From Galbibacter pacificus (GTDB lineage: Bacteria > Bacteroidota > Bacteroidia > Flavobacteriales > Flavobacteriaceae): a stretch of 64,000 nucleotides of DNA. Made by a program: the position numbers and the translations under genes. Under the pieces are notes generated by a model. That model did not search any database. It was not told where the DNA came from and saw only the letters and a list, made by a program, of their open reading frames with translations. Shown in pieces: positions 52,106-63,867 of this stretch (within the stretch, counting starts at the first letter, position 1; every line of letters begins with the position of its first letter). The stretch covers positions 372,001 to 436,000 of the forward strand of contig NZ_JAQSVC010000002.1 in the NCBI RefSeq assembly GCF_029603165.1, in the 5' to 3' direction.

Positions 52106-52376
52106 TTTAAGTAAAAACTGAGCTTTTATGTTAAAAACTTACGCCGAAATTACTAAAAATATCCAGTACGGGGTTCTTCCCTAGGAAAAATCCCTTTTTT
52201 AAATAGGTAACACCCTGTTACATAGTCTTTTTAAGTTGCATACATTCGTAATGTTCAAAAAGAAAAGTTTGCCTAAACTATTTCTACTACTACATTTTTT
52301 TTAAAAACCCGACCCCGTTTTTAACACTGCTCTTTTTTAAAATTTGTTCGATCAAAATAAACTAAACAAATATATT

Positions 52377-55300
52377 ATGGCTTCCGTTCAATTCAGTTTC
52401 ACATCAGAAGGCGATAACCGTCAACCAGAATTCAATAGTATTATAATTGAAGTAAATATCCCGAAATTTTCGTATAACATTAGTCGGAGTCAGATTTTCC
52501 GTTACGCAAGCGGTTTCGAATCTTTTAAGGTTTCGCATGATGTTGAAGACGAAACGTATAAAGTAAACGTGCCGTTAAATAAATTGACAGGAACGGAAAT
52601 GGAGGACATTTACGGGTTTTTCCTATATCATTTTATAGATATTTTAAAAGAAGAGGGCGTTAATATCAACGATTATTCGTTCAAGTTTACCATTACGACC
52701 AAGGACGATTTAAATCAGGTTATTTCTACCAAGGAATTTGAAGGGATTTATTATTTGAAGTCGCTTTATTCGTCTGATTTTGACAGAAAATACCATCAAG
52801 AAGAATATGCAAGATTTCTAAGCACTTATGGCGACATTAACTCTAAAAAGAAAGATGCACTAAACGTAAAAGGGCTTGCCAACTTGGCCGATCAATACAA
52901 TAAACGTGTTTTTATAATAAATAAAGAAGCTTACGAGCTGTTTAAATATATTTTTGATGCCATTTATCCAGAAAGGAATGTTTCTGATGATTTTGTGCTT
53001 AATTTCATACAAATTCTTGTAGATCTTAATGGCGAGCACCCAAAACTAACCGAAGCCGAATTTACTATTGGATACACGCAATTGGCCGATTTCCTTAAAA
53101 AAACCGAATATAACATCAGCAAAGAATTTTTTGATTATTTAAAGGAAAATTTCAACAAATTGTTCGATTTCCCCATTGCTATTCCTGAAATTCAAACCTT
53201 GACCATTGGTGGAAAACTGGAAATTATTTCAGAAGAAGAAGTAGTTCAGGGGGATTTGGATTTTTACGATTTGTCGGTCGAATATTTACAGGTAAACGGA
53301 ACCCCCAAGATTTTAAAATACAATTGGACCGAAGCAGGAAATACCATTGACGATAATACCATTGATTTTAACTTTAATGATGACGAACCATTATTGACCA
53401 ATAATATCTCCGGGCCAGTTTCGGTAAAGGTAAAAGGGTACGATGGTGCAGTTCTTTGGGAAGAAAAATTCAATAAAGATAACGACGAGCTTCAAAACCT
53501 CGATATAAAAATACGCAAATACCCCGCCGGTACCATTGAAGTAGATCCGCAAACCGGAAAACCAAAAAGTACCAAACGGTTGCGTGGAAAAGTGCTTCAG
53601 AATGGAGATAAGTATAATTTAAACGAGCTTACGGTAATTGTTCAGGCAAAAAAAGACGGCGACGAACTTTACAGGATAGTAGGTTCTGCAACCACCGATA
53701 AATCGGGGAACTTTTCGTTGGATTATCCTTATGGCGATTATATAGAGGCCCAGGCAATGGTATCGTTAATGCCAAGTAGTCCGGTAGATTTGGTTGTAAA
53801 TCCCGATGATTCCAACGAAACCATTTCAGACGATTTTATTTTCTTGCTTTTAATAGATGAAGAAGTGGTGGTAACCAATACCGAAACCGACGAACACGAT
53901 GATTGCGATTGCCATGCTACCAAAAAGGCAAAGAGACTGCCCGACCAGGCAGATCTTATTAATTCAGACGAGTATACCCAGGATATTGGCGGTTCCTGCA
54001 TCAACCTTTCCACCCCAAATAGAACCCTACGCGAATATAGTTACAATGCCATTGTGCGCATATCCGACCCCGAAGTGGCAAATTATGTGTTGCAAAAAGT
54101 AAATTTCCGGGGAAAAATACAGTACAATTTAGTAGGCGGAAGAAAAACGCTTGACCGGAAAGAAGTAGACCTGGACAACCCAATTCGCTGGGAAGACGCC
54201 CCCGATGCCAAAGAAAACCTGTCCATGTACCAAGCTGTTACGGTGGCTACGGGGCATATACTTCATTATAAATCGGTTTTTAAAGCCGATGGTTACTCGT
54301 TGGGAGATTTGGTATATTCGTTGCCATTGGCGCCCGGGCAGAAAAAACAAATTGTGGTATTTGAGTCATCTCATTCCCTTTCCGGTGCCGAGTCGCAATC
54401 CATCTCACAAGGAGAGAGCCTTTCGGCAGAATTGATTAGCGACCGCTTCATTACCGATCAATTAAGTGGGGGTATTAACGAAAACATGAGCGGTAGGAGC
54501 AAGGCCCATACCTCGGGAATGTCGGCAGGTTTGGGCGTTGGGGTTTCCTACGGCGGCATTGGTGCGTCTTTGGGGGTTGCCGGAGGTTTTTCAAATTCAA
54601 ATTCGTCTGCCTCTCAAAACAGTTCAAGGAATATCTCTCAGTTTTTTGGGGAAAAGCTAAGGCAATCGTTAATGCAAAATGCAGAAAGCTACAGGCAATT
54701 AAATGCATCTGTGGTAACAACGGTTACCGAAGGGCAAGACTATGGTGTAACGGCCGAGACCATTGCCAACCATAACCATTGCCATTCCCTTACCATGATG
54801 TATTTTGAAGTGTTGAGGCATTATGCAATATACCAAGAGCTCAGCCATGTAGAAGAGTGTGTGTTCGTGCCCTTGTTAATGACCAATTTTTCAACAGAAA
54901 ACATTCATAAATGGAAAGACATTTTGGCACAGAACCTATTGCCAATTCCTTCAAATACATATTTAAGGACATTTTCTTTTTTAAGGAGACAGCACCCTTT
55001 ATTAAAAGCTTTTGATGCCAACGAACGCATAAAAACAAATTACGCAAGGGTAGATTTTCCAGACCAGACCTATGCCGATGAAGTTATAACAGAACTTACC
55101 GGATATATGAAACTGAATATCCATATTCCAAGGCCCAAAACCCGGTTTGACAGAATCCTGTCTTTCCCCGTAATAAAAACAAAGGTAACTGTAGATGCGG
55201 GTGTAGATGTACCGGGCACCATACGCCAAAACATCAAAGACACCATTGTGGGGGCAGTGGTTCCCTGTGCTGCAAAAGGCCCAAGTATAAAAAGGAATAC

Positions 55301-58300
55301 CACAACTACCGAAGTTTTAACCCGGGGACAGATATTTGATATGTTTATGACCTTGGATGCTAATTATGAAACTGTTCCTCCCGCTCAATGTATCCGTGTT
55401 AATTTTGATGGATCCAATGGGGTAAATGTATTTAAGAATTTTATCAGCATTGTTTTTGATGGTGACGATGTTCCAACCCAAATGGATTTCTTTGCAGGAA
55501 TGGAAAAAGAGAAAAAGCTTTGGGAAGCATATGCCAAGATATTGGATATGGACCTTGAAGAACTTTTTAGTTATTTTAATGGAAATGTAATTGCCGATTG
55601 GGACAGGATATTTAACGAACACATAGCACCGCAAATTGTAAGCAACTTGATAAAAGATAATATTGGAAGTGGTGGGGCAAGGGTTTCCATTACGCCACTT
55701 GGTGATGTGGACCTTACGGAAGAGCAAAAATATAAAGGAGGGAATAGGATATTAAAATATTACATAAAAGATAACGGCCTTCCCACAAACAAAACCCGTA
55801 AATCCATTGATGAAATAGAAATTGATTTTACTTCGCCGTTAACCGGGGAATATCACGATCTGTTTTTTAATTACGTAACCTTTAAACTAGATAGCATCCA
55901 GATTAATTACAGAAGCGATTACCATTCGTCAACTTTGGTAAACAGGCGGCTTGTAAACGACTTACATGATGATGTACCGAATATCAATACGCCATTGAAT
56001 TCACTCGAAAAGAAAAACCCCAGAAAAGAAGATGAATACCTTGTAAACGAGCTCATTGAGCATTTAAACAGTAATTTAGAGCATTATAATAAAATATTGT
56101 GGTCAAATTTGGATCCGGACAGACGGTACATGCTCCTCGATGGCTTCAATATACAAACATATACTTCAACAGGACATAAATCGGTGATGCGCAGCTTGGC
56201 ATCGGTGGTAAAAAACGAATTGACTACCATTACGGGGAATTCTTTGGTTTTTCCAGTAGCCGAAGGATACCGCGTAGGAAGAAACAACATGCTTGAAGAA
56301 ATTGGCGATAATGTATTTATAGAAACATCGCTGTTTGATTATTACAAGCCCCTTACCCCAATACCTCCATATAGGGTAAGCGTGCCAACCCGTGGCGTAT
56401 TTATGGAAGCCATACAAGGCAATTGCGATGCCTGCGAAATGGTAAAAGAAAACTCATCTCAGGATTGGGATAAGTTTAGGACCGAAGAGCCTACTTCAAT
56501 AGCTCCTGTGGTAACCCCAACGCCAACCGTAACCGAATACAAGCCCGAGTATAAAGATTTTGCCACTCCAATGGTAAATATACAAAATGCGCCCGATGCT
56601 CCGGCACCGGGGGCCGGTTTATCCCAATTATCAGAATTGTTAGGGAAATCAGGCGTGTTTAACGATATTACCGGATTGGCAGGAAATCAGGAAAATGCCA
56701 TGAAAACTTATCTTTCCAATCAGGAAAATGCAAAGGCTTTTGCAGAAATGGCAAAAAGCCTGGCAACCCAGCAACATAATACCCAAAATTCTCAAAACAT
56801 TGCCGATGGTATTTCGCAGGCACGCCGTGATGGTAATATAAGCGATGAAGACGCACAAAATTTAACGCGTCAACATTTGCAACAGCAAATAGACGGAGGG
56901 GAAAGCGCAAGGGAAACTCAGCAATTTGAGCGCGAACAAAGTAGGCCTTCATTATCCCAAACAGCTTCCGATGCCGTAAACCGTGGTCAATCTGTACAGG
57001 CACAGCGTACCGATGCCGATGGCACCCATGAATCTATAAGCGTAAGGCCACCCGAAGGCTCTCAACCTGTTAACGTAAATTATACTGTTGAAGGGTTAAT
57101 ACAGCCGTCTATGGGTTGTTGGGCAACGGTAGCTACCATGATGATGAATTGGAAATTACACAGCTCGAACCCAATTCCGGAAATACTAAGAATGGCCGGA
57201 GAAAATTTGACCCCGCCAAACGAAAATTACTATGTAACTATGTTCGACAATGCTACCGGGTTAGCAGCATCAGAAAAAAATCAATTTATAAGCGCGTTGA
57301 ACATGCAGGCCATGCCACCGGCAAGTTATACAATTCAGCAATATTACGAGTGGTTAAGCAATTATGGACCATTATGGATTACTATAGATGCCGATCCTAC
57401 AGGTGGGTTCTCGCCGCATGCATTGTTGCTATTTGGAATGTCTGGAGATTTAAACAATCCAGACGATGTTACCTTTAAATTTATAAATCCTCAGGACGGG
57501 CAAGAACAATTTGAGTATTTTGATGATTTTATTGAAATGTTCGAACAAATGGCTACAGACAACTCTGGAGACCTGTTTCTACAAGTGGTAAGATTTAATG
57601 AAAGACTTTCCTTGGTTTCTGAAGGGCAAGCTTCGGGGGCGGGAAATCAATGGGATATCCCTGCCGATACCGTTATGAATTTTGCCATACAGGTAGCCCA
57701 TGATGAATTTAATACTTGGTGGACAGGAGGTTTATTGGACAATAATAATGACGGCATAGAAAAAGTTACGGAATATTGGTTGCCTTTCTATTCTGTTTCT
57801 GGTGCCGAAAGCACCGCAAGGCAAACAGAGCCCAGTCAAGTAGCGTGGAGTGCTGCATTTATTTCTTATTTATTATTAAGGGGCTATTTGCATGCCGTTG
57901 TAGCCAATTATCCAGAATTGGCTACACACAATGGCTTGGACCTAGAAGATTACAACACGCTAAGCAATACCCAAAAACGAACACTTTTGCGCCATGCAAA
58001 AGATAATTTGGAAAGGTTGGGAATCTTTAAAGCCGGCGGAAACCATGTAAGGTACATTGCTCAAAGTATGCAATTACAGCATAATTCCATTACTTTACTG
58101 GACCCAACCACAGAACCCGTACAATTGGGAGATTTAATACTAAACGGTCGGGATGGAGCTACATATAGCATTAATGGCAATGGTAGGATTAGCCCGTCCA
58201 GTGGCTCCAGCCATGTGGATGTTGTAGTTGAGATAATTCAAATTGAAGATGCCAATTTTGCAAGGCTTGTGGGTGGAAACACTACAAATACTTCAGATAG

Positions 58301-58526
58301 GGTAGCGTATAAATTAAGGCCGCTTGATAGTGCTGGGCGATTGATAAACGAAAGTAGCCTGAATGATGTTCCCATGGATGCATTAGGGCAAAATGTAAGA
58401 GACCACATGAGCGCATTAAGCAGCGGTTATTATTCCATTAGCGATGTCTCTGGCATAATAGAAGGAGCCAATGCATATGAACGCATTATTATAGGCGAAA
58501 CAAATATAATTGCTAGATTTACATAA
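52377..58526 (+). CDS. Giant 2049-residue protein with papain-like cysteine peptidase and DUF2272-like C-terminal domains
   Basis: The preferred start is ATG 52377 (MASVQFSFTSEGDN); the longer frame begins at a TTG 33 bases upstream. There is no leader or membrane helix. Residues 400-470 resemble a carboxypeptidase-regulatory beta-sandwich. A Cys/His-rich HDDCDCH lies near 510. Residues 640-1000 form a core containing YSLPLAPGQKKQIVVFESSH, a Gly/Ser-rich stretch near 715-745, and NHNHCH at 798-803 before MYFEVLRHY. After a Gln/Asn-rich linker (about 1440-1540) a papain-like domain shows Cys1581 (MGCWATVA), His1681 (FSPHALLLFG) and Asn1704 (INPQDG). DUF2272-like WSAAFISYLLLRG (from 1824) and GSSHVDVVVE follow. 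Function unknown; see findings. Confidence 0.85.
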   Translation: MASVQFSFTSEGDNRQPEFNSIIIEVNIPKFSYNISRSQIFRYASGFESFKVSHDVEDETYKVNVPLNKLTGTEMEDIYGFFLYHFIDILKEEGVNINDYSFKFTITTKDDLNQVISTKEFEGIYYLKSLYSSDFDRKYHQEEYARFLSTYGDINSKKKDALNVKGLANLADQYNKRVFIINKEAYELFKYIFDAIYPERNVSDDFVLNFIQILVDLNGEHPKLTEAEFTIGYTQLADFLKKTEYNISKEFFDYLKENFNKLFDFPIAIPEIQTLTIGGKLEIISEEEVVQGDLDFYDLSVEYLQVNGTPKILKYNWTEAGNTIDDNTIDFNFNDDEPLLTNNISGPVSVKVKGYDGAVLWEEKFNKDNDELQNLDIKIRKYPAGTIEVDPQTGKPKSTKRLRGKVLQNGDKYNLNELTVIVQAKKDGDELYRIVGSATTDKSGNFSLDYPYGDYIEAQAMVSLMPSSPVDLVVNPDDSNETISDDFIFLLLIDEEVVVTNTETDEHDDCDCHATKKAKRLPDQADLINSDEYTQDIGGSCINLSTPNRTLREYSYNAIVRISDPEVANYVLQKVNFRGKIQYNLVGGRKTLDRKEVDLDNPIRWEDAPDAKENLSMYQAVTVATGHILHYKSVFKADGYSLGDLVYSLPLAPGQKKQIVVFESSHSLSGAESQSISQGESLSAELISDRFITDQLSGGINENMSGRSKAHTSGMSAGLGVGVSYGGIGASLGVAGGFSNSNSSASQNSSRNISQFFGEKLRQSLMQNAESYRQLNASVVTTVTEGQDYGVTAETIANHNHCHSLTMMYFEVLRHYAIYQELSHVEECVFVPLLMTNFSTENIHKWKDILAQNLLPIPSNTYLRTFSFLRRQHPLLKAFDANERIKTNYARVDFPDQTYADEVITELTGYMKLNIHIPRPKTRFDRILSFPVIKTKVTVDAGVDVPGTIRQNIKDTIVGAVVPCAAKGPSIKRNTTTTEVLTRGQIFDMFMTLDANYETVPPAQCIRVNFDGSNGVNVFKNFISIVFDGDDVPTQMDFFAGMEKEKKLWEAYAKILDMDLEELFSYFNGNVIADWDRIFNEHIAPQIVSNLIKDNIGSGGARVSITPLGDVDLTEEQKYKGGNRILKYYIKDNGLPTNKTRKSIDEIEIDFTSPLTGEYHDLFFNYVTFKLDSIQINYRSDYHSSTLVNRRLVNDLHDDVPNINTPLNSLEKKNPRKEDEYLVNELIEHLNSNLEHYNKILWSNLDPDRRYMLLDGFNIQTYTSTGHKSVMRSLASVVKNELTTITGNSLVFPVAEGYRVGRNNMLEEIGDNVFIETSLFDYYKPLTPIPPYRVSVPTRGVFMEAIQGNCDACEMVKENSSQDWDKFRTEEPTSIAPVVTPTPTVTEYKPEYKDFATPMVNIQNAPDAPAPGAGLSQLSELLGKSGVFNDITGLAGNQENAMKTYLSNQENAKAFAEMAKSLATQQHNTQNSQNIADGISQARRDGNISDEDAQNLTRQHLQQQIDGGESARETQQFEREQSRPSLSQTASDAVNRGQSVQAQRTDADGTHESISVRPPEGSQPVNVNYTVEGLIQPSMGCWATVATMMMNWKLHSSNPIPEILRMAGENLTPPNENYYVTMFDNATGLAASEKNQFISALNMQAMPPASYTIQQYYEWLSNYGPLWITIDADPTGGFSPHALLLFGMSGDLNNPDDVTFKFINPQDGQEQFEYFDDFIEMFEQMATDNSGDLFLQVVRFNERLSLVSEGQASGAGNQWDIPADTVMNFAIQVAHDEFNTWWTGGLLDNNNDGIEKVTEYWLPFYSVSGAESTARQTEPSQVAWSAAFISYLLLRGYLHAVVANYPELATHNGLDLEDYNTLSNTQKRTLLRHAKDNLERLGIFKAGGNHVRYIAQSMQLQHNSITLLDPTTEPVQLGDLILNGRDGATYSINGNGRISPSSGSSHVDVVVEIIQIEDANFARLVGGNTTNTSDRVAYKLRPLDSAGRLINESSLNDVPMDALGQNVRDHMSALSSGYYSISDVSGIIEGANAYERIIIGETNIIARFT

Positions 58527-58558
58527 TTTTAATGGTATACCATTATTGCTTCAATTAG

Positions 58559-58633
58559 AACTCGTCTTAACTTTTTTAATCAACCCACCAGAATAACCCT
58601 TGTCGGGCAGGGTGGAAAGAGTTAAGATGAGTT
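58559..58633. repeat. 75-bp inverted-repeat element
   Basis: AACTCGTCTTAACT (58559-58572) and AGTTAAGATGAGTT (58620-58633) pair over 14 positions with one G-T. CCACC (58585-58589) and GGTGG (58611-58615) form an inner stem. It lies 32 bases after the giant gene stop. The expected T tract after the stem is absent on the plus strand, so it is not a standard terminator. Confidence 0.6.
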
Positions 58634-58683
58634 TATAATAAAAAAAACTACAAGCCTATGAGTGCCTTCAACAAATTAAAACA

Positions 58684-59247
58684 ATGAACTTAACTATAAA
58701 CAACAATTTTTTTGTTATTACCGGCGGGCCCGGTGTTGGAAAAACAACGTTGCTTAATGAACTAAAAAATAAAAATTTGGTTGTTGTACCCGAGATAGCA
58801 AGAGAACTTATAATTGAGCAGAAGCATAATAATGGAGAAGCCCTTCCATGGAAAAACACAGAATTGTACAAACAATTACTATTTGACCGATCTATTAAAA
58901 GCTATAAAGAAGTTGAAAAGGAACATGCCGGTTCTGTTCCGGTTTTCTTTGATCGTGGGTTTCTGGACACGCTTTGCTATGCCAAATTGATTAATTCAAA
59001 AATAAACGGGCACATGCATGGGTACGGTAAAAAATTACGGTACAACAAAAACGTTTTTATACTTCCGCCGTGGAAAGAAATATACATAACCGATGGCGAA
59101 AGAAAACAAAATTGGGAAGAAGCTTTATTGACCTTCAAGAAAATGGCAGAGACGTACAAAGAATATCATTATACCATTAATGAAGTCCCAAAGAAAAGTC
59201 CAAGCGAAAGGGCTAATTATATTTTAAAATGCATTAATGCCCAGTGA
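58684..59247 (+). CDS. AAA_28-type P-loop ATPase/kinase
   Basis: A 187-residue protein with P-loop TGGPGVGKTTLLNELK at residues 13-28 and VVPEIARELIIEQ, the AAA_28 second motif. SVPVFFDRGFLDTLCY follows, in which the Asp may act in catalysis. The later part (KEYHYTINEVPKKSPSERANYIL) resembles small-molecule kinases of the NadR/thymidylate-kinase-like group. It has no leader, so it is cytosolic. Substrate unknown. It follows the inverted-repeat element downstream of the giant gene and may or may not belong to that transcript. Confidence 0.8.
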   Translation: MNLTINNNFFVITGGPGVGKTTLLNELKNKNLVVVPEIARELIIEQKHNNGEALPWKNTELYKQLLFDRSIKSYKEVEKEHAGSVPVFFDRGFLDTLCYAKLINSKINGHMHGYGKKLRYNKNVFILPPWKEIYITDGERKQNWEEALLTFKKMAETYKEYHYTINEVPKKSPSERANYILKCINAQ

Positions 59248-59344
59248 ATTAATAAAAACAACACAATGTATAACTTATTTTGATTAACGGGGCAATCGTT
59301 TAGATTTTTATTATCTTTATGCTATAACACCAATTAAGGATAAC

Positions 59345-59719
59345 ATGAAAAAGTTACTTTTTATAGCATTAATAATGCTTCAGTTTTCTGTATCGGCACA
59401 AGAAGAAACAGCCCCACAAAATATGTCTTATAACGATATGTTGAACAAACAGGTAGAACAGCTTCAGCTAACAGGTGCCGAAAAGGACAGTTTTATAAGC
59501 ATCAGCAAAAAATACTATGACAAGGCAGTTGAAGTAAAAAACAGCAGTGTTTCCAGAAACGAAAAATTTCAAGAACTAAAATCGCTCATGAAGGGTAAGG
59601 ACGATGAGCTTCAAGCAGCCCTTTCCCCTGCAAGTTATAGCACTTACAAAGAAATGCAGAAAGAAAACAGGGAAAAGGTAAAAAGAGCCTATAGGCATTT
59701 AAATGCCATTCATGAATAA
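59345..59719 (+). CDS. Exported Spy/CpxP-like helical protein
   Basis: A 124-residue protein with leader MKKLLFIALIMLQFSVSAQ, then about 100 residues of highly charged helices: LTGAEKDSFISISKKYYDKAVEV, DDELQAALSPASYSTYKEMQKENREKVK. The pattern of LTGAE-type helix starts and STYKEMQK resembles LTxxQ periplasmic chaperone-like proteins (Spy/CpxP); I do not see exact LTxxQ repeats. Probably a periplasmic stress protein; function inferred from resemblance. No promoter is clear. Confidence 0.65.
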   Translation: MKKLLFIALIMLQFSVSAQEETAPQNMSYNDMLNKQVEQLQLTGAEKDSFISISKKYYDKAVEVKNSSVSRNEKFQELKSLMKGKDDELQAALSPASYSTYKEMQKENREKVKRAYRHLNAIHE

Positions 59720-59807
59720 TATTTATAAGTGGATATATTGTTGTTGACTTTTTTAAAAGTAAATAAAACACTTAATTTGTAAGTGAAATCCATAATTAAT
59801 ATTCAAA

Positions 59808-62286: not shown

Positions 62287-63867
62287 ATGTTTTTCATTTG
62301 GTTTATTTATTTTCTTTTTATTCAATTGGTACATTTTTTATCGACATGGAAATTATATAAAATGGCCGGAAGAAAAAGTTGGGAAGCCGCAACCCCTATA
62401 TACAATGCCGTTATTTTAATGAAAATTATAAACCGGCCAACATGGTGGGTGATATTATTGTTTGTTCCCATTGTCAACTTAATCATGTTTCTGGTAATAT
62501 GGGTTGAAACTATAAGGAGTTATGGTAAAAACACTCTATTGGATACATTTTTGGTTGTATGTAGTTTAGGATTGTATGTTGCATATCTAAACTATTTTTC
62601 AATGGATTTATCATATATAAACAAAAGGTCATTGAAACCTAAAACATCCATCGGTGAATGGATAAGTTCTATGTTATTTGCCATTGTAGTTGCAACAATA
62701 GTGCATACATATCTTGTTCAACCGTATGTAATACCTTCATCTTCACTTGAAAAAACGTTACTTGTTGGAGATTTTTTATTTGTAAGTAAAATTAATTACG
62801 GAGCAAGGATTCCATTAACAACAATTGCTTTCCCGATGGTTCACGATACCATTCCAGTTATTAATTGCAAGTCGTATTTATTTAACGATGCTATTTCTAA
62901 AAAGGAAACATCATGGTTTAATAAGTTTCAGCTCCCGTATTTGAGGTTGCCTGGTTTTCAACGAATAAAACGAAACGACCTTGTAGTGTTCAACCAACCT
63001 GCTGATACGCTTTTGGATATGAGCAACTTTCATCCAAACAGAAATTATTACAAGCCAATAGACAAAAAAACAAATTTAATTAAACGTTGTGTCGGTTTAC
63101 CTGGAGATACATTGTCCATTATCAATGGATATGTTTTTATAAATAATAAAAAATCAATACTGCCAAAAAATGCAAGGCTACAATTTGCATATTTTGTAGA
63201 AACCAAAGGAGGTAAGCTTACTCCAAAATATATGTACGAACGTTTTGGGGTTACCGACTGGTTTGGAGAAATTAAGCCCAGCTTATATTATTTTAAGTCA
63301 TTAACCAACAAAGCCGTCAAAAAGCTATTGAAAAACCCAAATGTTGTTGCCGCCAACAGAGACATGGTACAAATGGAAACCATTGTCCAAAAAGTTTTTC
63401 CATATTCGGGAGCATATAAAAATACTGTAAATCAATTTGAAGCAGTTTATATTCCAAAAGCAGGAAGAACCATTCAATTAAATAAAGGAATATTGCCGTT
63501 GTATAAAAGGGTAATTGAAGAATATGAACATAATGAATTAAAACTAAAAGGGAATCAAATATTTATCAATGGAAAAGAAGCAAAAACATATACCTTTAAA
63601 CAGGATTATTACTGGATGATGGGCGATAATAGGGATAATTCTATTGATTCCCGCTTTTGGGGTTTTGTTCCTTTTGACCATATTATTGGAAAACCTGTTC
63701 TTATTTGGTTCAGCTGGAATAAAAATGAAAAAGGGATTATAAAAAAAATACGTTGGAAGCGATTGTTGACTTCAGTTGAGGGTTCGTCAAAATCGTACTT
63801 TATATATTTTGCAATATTAACCCTTGCATACTTGGGCTATACAGCTTTTAGAAGAAATAGAAAGTAA
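62287..63867 (+). CDS. lepB: Signal peptidase I
   Basis: A 526-residue membrane peptidase that removes Sec leaders. An N-terminal domain with about three helices (1-110) precedes a further span near 125-142. The nucleophile is Ser153 in PYVIPSSSLEKTLLVGDF, matching box B with Leu for Met after Ser. The general base Lys266 is in LIKRCVGLPGD, and box E is GDNRDNSIDSRFWGFVP near 462. About 95 residues separate boxes C and D, with a further ~170 before box E; this long insert and a C-terminal membrane span are usual for flavobacterial LepB. ATG 62287 follows 83 bases after the AraC gene. Confidence 0.9.
   Translation: MFFIWFIYFLFIQLVHFLSTWKLYKMAGRKSWEAATPIYNAVILMKIINRPTWWVILLFVPIVNLIMFLVIWVETIRSYGKNTLLDTFLVVCSLGLYVAYLNYFSMDLSYINKRSLKPKTSIGEWISSMLFAIVVATIVHTYLVQPYVIPSSSLEKTLLVGDFLFVSKINYGARIPLTTIAFPMVHDTIPVINCKSYLFNDAISKKETSWFNKFQLPYLRLPGFQRIKRNDLVVFNQPADTLLDMSNFHPNRNYYKPIDKKTNLIKRCVGLPGDTLSIINGYVFINNKKSILPKNARLQFAYFVETKGGKLTPKYMYERFGVTDWFGEIKPSLYYFKSLTNKAVKKLLKNPNVVAANRDMVQMETIVQKVFPYSGAYKNTVNQFEAVYIPKAGRTIQLNKGILPLYKRVIEEYEHNELKLKGNQIFINGKEAKTYTFKQDYYWMMGDNRDNSIDSRFWGFVPFDHIIGKPVLIWFSWNKNEKGIIKKIRWKRLLTSVEGSSKSYFIYFAILTLAYLGYTAFRRNRK

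Follow-up and report, generated by a model that had tools for sequence, protein, structure and literature searches.

What does a bacterium do with a leaderless protein of 2049 residues whose C-terminal part carries a papain-like protease and a predicted cell-wall hydrolase? The question is raised by the gene at 52377–58526 in a 64,000-nucleotide stretch of the Galbibacter pacificus genome (contig NZ_JAQSVC010000002.1, positions 372,001 to 436,000, forward strand), hereafter the window. A first-pass annotation had described its product as a large scaffold, possibly processed by its own protease, that handles peptidoglycan or protein substrates. Self-processing is plausible and the peptidoglycan part of that description fits the C-terminal domain, but the scaffold is better understood as a carrier that stays constant while the enzyme at its C-terminus, termed here the payload, can be exchanged. 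With moderate confidence, we read the protein as a leaderless, polymorphic-toxin-like modular effector of new architecture, in which a new carrier and a swappable enzyme are joined through a protease of the Peptidase_C70 family (C70).

Gene, frame and recognisable domains

The gene is a single uninterrupted frame on the forward strand, running from an ATG at 52377 to a stop codon ending at 58526; an alternative in-frame TTG at 52344 would add 11 residues and still give no leader. Both C-terminal domains proposed in the first-pass annotation were recovered by Pfam: Peptidase_C70 (PF12385) matched residues 1565–1720 with an E-value of 1.8e-19 (70.5 bits, curated cut-off 19), and DUF2272 (PF10030) matched residues 1884–1994 with an E-value of 4.4e-10 (40.1 bits, curated cut-off 27). 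The putative catalytic residues named earlier lie at Cys1581, His1681 and Asn1704, with spacings of 100 and 23 residues, and the DUF2272 signatures WSAAFISYLLL and GSSHVDVVVE at 1824–1834 and 1943–1952. Further upstream, we located YSLPLAPGQ at 647–655, IVVFE at 659–663, NHNHCHSL at 798–805 and YFEVLRHY at 809–816. This region had been taken to be conserved in large uncharacterised proteins of actinobacteria and others, correctly, as its relatives were found across phyla.

Beyond C70 and DUF2272, the window protein has no Pfam match above cut-off, and NCBIfam returned zero matches. Neither database detected a known trafficking module at the N-terminus or a C-terminal sorting domain of the type IX secretion system, the latter in agreement with the earlier view that the protein does not belong to the type IX pair. 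PADLOC assigned it to 0 known defence families. Its highest 19-residue Kyte-Doolittle window is 1.36, so the reported absence of a membrane helix holds for this protein. Across the family, a 19-residue window above 1.6 is present in 43 of the 97 proteins measured and never begins before residue 158. An N-terminal 12-residue hydrophobicity above 2.0 was seen in one of these 97; by this crude hydrophobicity test, with start codons guessed as the first Met, a leader-like start is missing in the other 96.

Carrier and payload as exchangeable modules

Residues ~506–1366, the core, define an unnamed protein family. A scan of 84,980 species genomes recovered 147 relatives among 158 candidate stretches, a lower bound because the scan used a single core peptide pattern, and 79 loci were kept (cited below by L numbers). 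The core alignment comprises 86 rows; of its 89 candidates, L042, L064, L076 and L078, split or truncated, were dropped.

Alignments within this family show that carrier and payload are separate, exchangeable modules. The window protein and those of L002 and L033 are 79–97% alike per 100 residues over residues 401–1700, and 23–27% past residue 1800. In Segetibacter (L020, a shotgun assembly), two genes in tandem match base for base over 4751 bases and part at the following one, where the linker behind the core ends; one continues into C70 and a payload, the other directly into a DUF2272 payload. On a quick core tree, 46 rows in nine shared payload clusters need 15 changes (minimum 8) and C70 presence needs 11; the payload figure is based on an earlier clustering of 75 payloads in 38 clusters that included linker-only ends.

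Payloads were defined as the sequence after C70, or as a C-terminal region 250 or more residues long, and 11 linker-only ends were left out. The resulting 76 payloads group by sequence into 33 clusters, including 21 singletons; the clustering is single-linkage and rough, since the nuclease-looking C-terminus of L026 falls in the largest, HExxH-rich cluster. Pfam was run on 91 of 96 C-terminal regions, those of at least 150 residues (five shorter ones were left out). It named Peptidase_C70 in 35, Amidase_2 and DUF2272 in eight each, PETase-like, Beta-lactamase2 and C39_2 in three each, and OmpA and PG_binding_1 in two each, with GH25, M23, M15_4, DUF5675, muramidase and Amidase_6 seen once. The Pfam-named payloads are thus predicted to act mainly on cell envelopes, chiefly as peptidoglycan hydrolases. 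A motif search found HExxH near the C-terminus of 12 family proteins, always 82–165 residues from the end, and the largest payload cluster, with 11 members, has an HExxH in nine of them; these payloads therefore look like metallopeptidases. By eye, the C-termini of L026 and L009 resemble what we take to be PD-(D/E)XK nucleases.

The window's own payload is probably cell-wall hydrolase-like, and peptidoglycan handling would fit. Ser1825 stands at the position of the NlpC/P60 cysteine and is Ser in all eight members of its payload cluster, and the motif of His1946 was recovered by pattern in five of the eight. This agrees with the description of DUF2272 in the examined text of PMC10318531, where Ser replaces the catalytic Cys of NlpC/P60.

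At six loci the core ends in a bare linker, and a same-strand open frame begins close to the core end, anywhere from 15 bp ahead of it to 13 bp past it. According to Pfam scans of one gene per group, these adjoining frames are caspase-like at L046, L070 and L089, with two such genes each at L070 and L089, and tyrosinase-like at L047, L048 and L072.

The C70 protease and a candidate processing site

Conservation of Cys1581 and His1681 in homologues had been set beforehand as one test of the protease assignment. Among 35 distinct C70 proteins, the window protein counted once, Cys is kept in 35 and His in 34, and the third residue is Asp in 27 and Asn in 7. The sole protein without His and third residue, that of L025, stops before them. 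C70 follows the linker. Twenty-six proteins have the order core, C70, payload, with payloads of 218–545 residues. In eight others, C70 lies at the extreme C-terminus with 13–17 residues left, and all eight are second genes of two-gene operons (L068, L071, L077, L084, L085, L057, L067 and L088) whose first genes encode core and hydrolase-like payload (~700 residues) and no C70. A ninth short C70 protein is the truncated one of L025, and two other tandem loci, L020 and L052, are arranged otherwise.

Seven aligned first genes have in common a hydrolase-type GHSRGG motif, although Pfam named no hydrolase in the one scanned singly. In seven of the eight pairs (Mycobacterium, Streptosporangiales-type and Acidobacteriota), the quick core tree puts first genes in one clade and second genes in another, parallel one, so the pair is old and retained; the Nitrospira pair lies outside both clades on long branches. 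Since C70 and payload are fused in some proteins and split over two genes in others, they probably work together.

From this architecture we infer, with good support, that C70 is the protease that releases the payload. The cleavage had earlier been expected near residue 1540; a likelier cut, or hinge, lies near residue 1750, at Ser-Glu-Gly-Gln 1748–1751 between C70 and payload. After the final C70 strand, Glu-Gly recurs in 22 of the 23 C70-plus-payload proteins that could be anchored (shuffles: mean 3.9, maximum 12, n = 2000), a count inflated by kinship among the sequences. The overall figure is 22 of 26, as three proteins could not be anchored and none of them displays Glu-Gly in the stretch inspected. 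The motif occurs over several unrelated payload clusters.

Structure of the carrier

An AlphaFold model of the N-terminal 520 residues (31 sequences) reached a mean predicted local distance difference test score (pLDDT) of 80.8. Its best Foldseek match was the pilin BcpA (E 8.5e-6), and the rest were mostly pilins, adhesins, antibodies and receptors, with low TM-scores. In some relatives a helix-hairpin-helix domain comes first (HHH_3: L079, E 1.2e-17; L073, E 1.4e-9; L044, below cut-off). Such ComEA-like domains or motifs were seen at the N-termini of L079, L073, L044, L082, L090, L048 and L055, the first three of which were covered by the Pfam scan; DNA binding by these N-termini would be unexpected for an exported toxin.

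The model of residues 505–1480 (86 sequences; mean pLDDT 70.1, predicted TM-score 0.51) contains six successive strands of 24–32 residues each at 624–832, forming long beta hairpins with a Gly-rich tip. Hydrophobic moments over the alignment point to a helix at 675–702, a beta-type amphipathic tip at 703–744 and a helix at 745–786. Beta-pore toxins make up 48 of the top 50 Foldseek matches of this model, which is a lead only, because long hairpins match long hairpins. Inside the core, the stretch 905–1204 is 25–42% identical to L003 and L014 between flanks of 78–90% and could be a target-recognition part.

Several other leads for the core were rejected. The Pfam names recurring in the ribbon region, DUF6414 (29 of 86), C19orf12 (12) and MAM1 (11), with best E-values of 0.0027, 0.00018 and 0.0011, look like composition matches, since the ribbon hairpin is Gly-rich and hydrophobic. 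Homology to binary-toxin B components is not supported, Binary_toxB_2 (PF17475) being below cut-off in every listed match, including that of the window protein (E 0.072). Among solved structures, a sequence search gave no convincing homologue, only a tail-fibre chain (E 0.023) and an antibody chain (E 0.89).

Distribution and evolution

Whole-protein relatives occur in two of 98 other genomes around the window: a congener, 71% identical, and another genus, 81% identical over residues 1–1835 and different thereafter. Carriers number 8 of 395 genomes in the window's phylum, the window's included, four of the eight having short stand-alone cores in frames of 318–499 residues. In the phylum of Streptomyces they number 2 of 296, counting the centre genome. 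The family as a whole spans ten phylum-level groups (Bacteroidota, Pseudomonadota, Myxococcota, Bacillota, Actinomycetota, Acidobacteriota, Chloroflexota, Nitrospirota, Verrucomicrobiota and a Melainabacteria bin), several group members being metagenome bins. On the quick core tree these groups need 28 changes (minimum 9), with long branches flagged.

Protein identity is out of step with RpoB, as compared over a 1091-residue piece between the window's genome and four carriers. The congener is 97.6% identical in RpoB and 71.2% in the big protein, while genome G027, Cellulophaga and Zhouia are 89.9–92.9% identical in RpoB and 77.2–77.5% in the big protein. In another genome of the genus, G001, the neighbours flanking 52106–59807 adjoin each other in the same relative orientation; this stretch, which besides the big gene contains an AAA_28 gene and an open reading frame (ORF) of 124 residues, is therefore absent there. 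A neighbouring pseudouridine synthase gene was found in all seven genomes searched, and the big gene lies beside it only in G004 (within ~1.5 kb).

Family genes broken into two frames or shortened were seen at L042 (8846–13828), L076 (3145–7802) and L025, which fits a fast-turnover gene. In genomes of the window's phylum, payload-less short cores in frames of 453–499 residues stand at L100 (979–2337), L101 (1213–2709) and L102 (1078–2478), and that of L103 is split over two frames; short stand-alone cores have NPNxCHAxTY and LPTPG...CLD-type motifs.

A plasmid search with the whole protein returned 28 records from nine genera at 23–31% identity, all to parts of the core except that from Rhizobium, which matched C70 alone. 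A phage origin was rejected. IMG/VR held no relative (0 of 21 candidate stretches), the single match in a phage set, a faecal scaffold that is unverified and carries no annotation, is probably bacterial, and a short core matched no phage record. No match in a viral Foldseek search was below E 1e-3, and PHROGs matches were scattered and weak (best E 0.00027, no family matching more than 8 of 86 members). Searches of open-licence PubMed Central (PMC) papers turned up no account of the family, whose core has no name to search by.

Proposed mode of action and competing explanations

In the effector that we favour, a constant carrier of adhesin-like beta sandwiches and conserved core would hold the exchangeable enzyme, and the protein would leave its producer by lysis or another route. 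C70 would cut directly behind itself, near residue 1750, freeing the payload. The core might insert in a membrane via its long beta hairpins and pass the payload across, a step that we propose more tentatively than release by C70.

A number of observations weigh against this reading. All activities considered here are predicted from sequence and models. Many payloads have no Pfam name (11 of 20 C-termini and downstream genes scanned singly, for example), and the tyrosinase-like, OmpA and two nuclease-looking payloads do not share one target. No immunity-type neighbour was found among the gene groups recurring in at least three loci, unlike in classic polymorphic toxins; a same-strand ORF of at least 60 residues begins within 200 bp downstream of the family gene in 45 of 95 cases. 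Glu-Gly may mark merely a recombination joint. The hairpin tip is poorly modelled, with pLDDT mostly below 50 at 684–774, and the strands of the model conflict with the helices that the moments place on either side of the tip, although a helix-to-hairpin switch of the segment would reconcile the two. The best Foldseek match of the core has an E-value of 1.2e-3 and a probability of 0.15, with none at 1e-3 or better and TM-scores of 0.03–0.18. Binary_toxB_2 reached E 10 or better in 4 of the 86 ribbon regions (best 0.0072, 16.5 bits, cut-off 25). Finally, no secretion system was recognised for export, and two options for delivery are live: either lysis releases the protein, which then inserts itself, or the protein brings about self-lysis from inside.

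A possible but less probable explanation is a single-chain AB-type toxin for bacterial envelopes, in which adhesin-like targeting, a beta-hairpin translocation pore, the variable cassette (905–1204) as recognition part, the protease and the exchangeable enzyme would together cross the target membrane unaided by any secretion apparatus.

Self-lysis leads to a second alternative, a one-chain holin-endolysin. The protein would stay cytosolic until an internal signal, such as phage attack, made the core pierce the inner membrane and C70 free a wall-cutter into the maker's periplasm, in a programmed lysis. The missing leader would suit this role, as would the neighbourhood: among groups recurring in at least three loci there are no secretion genes and no immunity genes, and self-lysis would not require the latter. 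The mainly wall-cutting Pfam-named payloads, the DNA-binding helix-hairpin-helix domains of some relatives and the caspase-like genes beside three cores also speak for it. Nevertheless, the empty PADLOC result, the adhesin-like N-terminal region and the tyrosinase-like, lipase-like, OmpA and metallopeptidase-like payloads, ill-suited to self-lysis, make it rather unlikely.

We consider it more doubtful still that the protein is a cytosolic or cell-surface housekeeping scaffold that serves in wall recycling, in storage or in the matrix and owes its varied C-terminal enzymes to ordinary domain shuffling. The adhesin- and pilin-like folds, the OmpA and PG_binding_1 C-termini and the payload-less cores could be accommodated, but rarity and patchiness, identity out of step with RpoB, a recent payload swap and dozens of unlike payloads are marks of conflict systems.

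Delivery by a contractile apparatus was examined with the sheath profiles PF04984 and PF05943, in 45 and 42 genomes, mostly isolates, picked from the 79 loci for the sheath and VipB searches. At E 0.001, the sheath was commoner in other carrier genomes (22 of 45, 14 above cut-off) than in genomes drawn from the window's phylum (74 of 296, 51 above cut-off), a comparison that is not matched, because carriers span many phyla. The window's genome and its two closest carriers had neither the sheath (0 of 3) nor VipB/TssC, the sheath of the type VI secretion system (0 of 3); VipB occurred in 12 of 45 carrier genomes, these three included. It is thus very improbable that the protein is cargo of an extracellular contractile injection system (eCIS), a Photorhabdus virulence cassette (PVC) or a type VI system, even though the examined text of PMC3482391 describes OmpA, NlpC/P60 and caspase-like domains in PVC toxins: no N-terminal HExxH as in the PVC peptidase was found in the family by motif search, tail genes are missing from the recurring neighbours, and for the window's organism an obligate route of this kind is ruled out unless both profiles missed the sheath.

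Relation to known systems

The favoured effector shares with polymorphic toxin systems, as far as the examined text of Zhang et al. 2012 (PMC3482391) goes, a constant front, a variable C-terminus exchanged by recombination, a very wide phyletic spread and a papain- or caspase-like releasing peptidase beside the toxin, the last judged here from architecture. It differs in that its core matches no trafficking module of Pfam or NCBIfam, no leader or secretion system is recognised, no immunity gene recurs and the Pfam-named payloads are mainly envelope-acting. The terms AvrRpt2 and DUF2272 do not occur in the examined text of that paper. The examined text of PMC10318531 places C70 proteins among the peptidases that take part in interactions between plants and pathogens, with a type III effector as an example. 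The window's domain belongs to this AvrRpt2-type family by its profile match and its Cys/His/(Asn or Asp) triad, but is an internal module of a 2000-residue carrier. Likewise, its DUF2272, with Ser for the catalytic Cys, is unlike others in being one among several interchangeable payloads.

With binary-toxin B components and beta-barrel pore-forming toxins the core has in common long hairpins around an amphipathic Gly/Ser-rich tip. Unlike in these toxins, the payload is covalently attached and, where named by Pfam, mainly targets bacterial envelopes, and there is no significant sequence or structure match. The toxins associated with eCIS include an antibacterial one that cuts peptidoglycan (PMC8213781, examined text), an activity predicted here as well; unlike these, the window's genome yielded no sheath, and its protein no Pfam match to DUF4157.

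Overall, the protein resembles a weapon or lysis device of modular build, from a family in which the exchangeable enzyme, often joined via a papain-like protease, would often attack the envelope. Its uncharacterised carrier is common to Flavobacteriaceae, Chitinophaga, Myxococcota, Streptomyces, Mycobacterium, Nitrospira and others, and would unite a protease family of plant-pathogen effectors, many kinds of wall-cutting enzymes and many unclassified domains in one system. The C-termini of the family form a catalogue of new candidate lytic enzymes, and the placement of C70 offers a directly testable release step. Should the core truly cross membranes, it would amount to a means of delivery that needs no injection machine.

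Feature coordinates and neighbouring genes

Table 1. Features of the gene and its downstream neighbour, in window coordinates.
Feature	Residues	Position	Strand	Basis
Whole gene	2049 residues, no leader	52377..58526	+	
N-terminal region; Ig/CnaB-type beta sandwiches at ~277-500	1-500	52377..53876	+	AlphaFold, Foldseek
Conserved carrier core	~506-1366	53892..56474	+	86-row alignment; many different C-termini
Core motif YSLPLAPGQ...IVVFE	647-663	54315..54365	+	Alignment, motif positions
Helix / Gly-rich amphipathic tip / helix, membrane-insertion-like	665-790	54369..54746	+	Hydrophobic moments over alignment
Core motif NHNHCHSL...YFEVLRHY	798-816	54768..54824	+	Alignment, motif positions
Internal variable cassette	~905-1204	55089..55988	+	Identity to L003/L014, column profile
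Core-closing motif SVPTRGVF...CDACE	1335-1354	56379..56438	+	Alignment; similar motif in short stand-alone cores
Ala/Gln/Ser-rich linker; payload or protease attached after	1367-1560	56475..57056	+	Identity and column profiles
Peptidase_C70 papain-like domain	1565-1740	57069..57596	+	PF12385 E 1.8e-19; catalytic conservation
Predicted catalytic Cys	1581	57117-57119	+	
Predicted catalytic His	1681	57417-57419	+	
Predicted catalytic Asn	1704	57486-57488	+	
Ser-Glu-Gly-Gln, candidate processing site or hinge	1748-1751	57618..57629	+	Glu-Gly recurrence behind C70
Payload: DUF2272 (NlpC/P60-like), Ser1825 and His1946	1760-2049	57654..58523	+	PF10030 E 4.4e-10 over 1884-1994
AAA_28 gene downstream; functional membership not implied		58684..59247	+	In stretch absent at congener's empty site

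Further along the window, 62287–63867 encodes a 526-residue signal-peptidase S26 protein, in which a DUF5684 domain precedes the S26 part.

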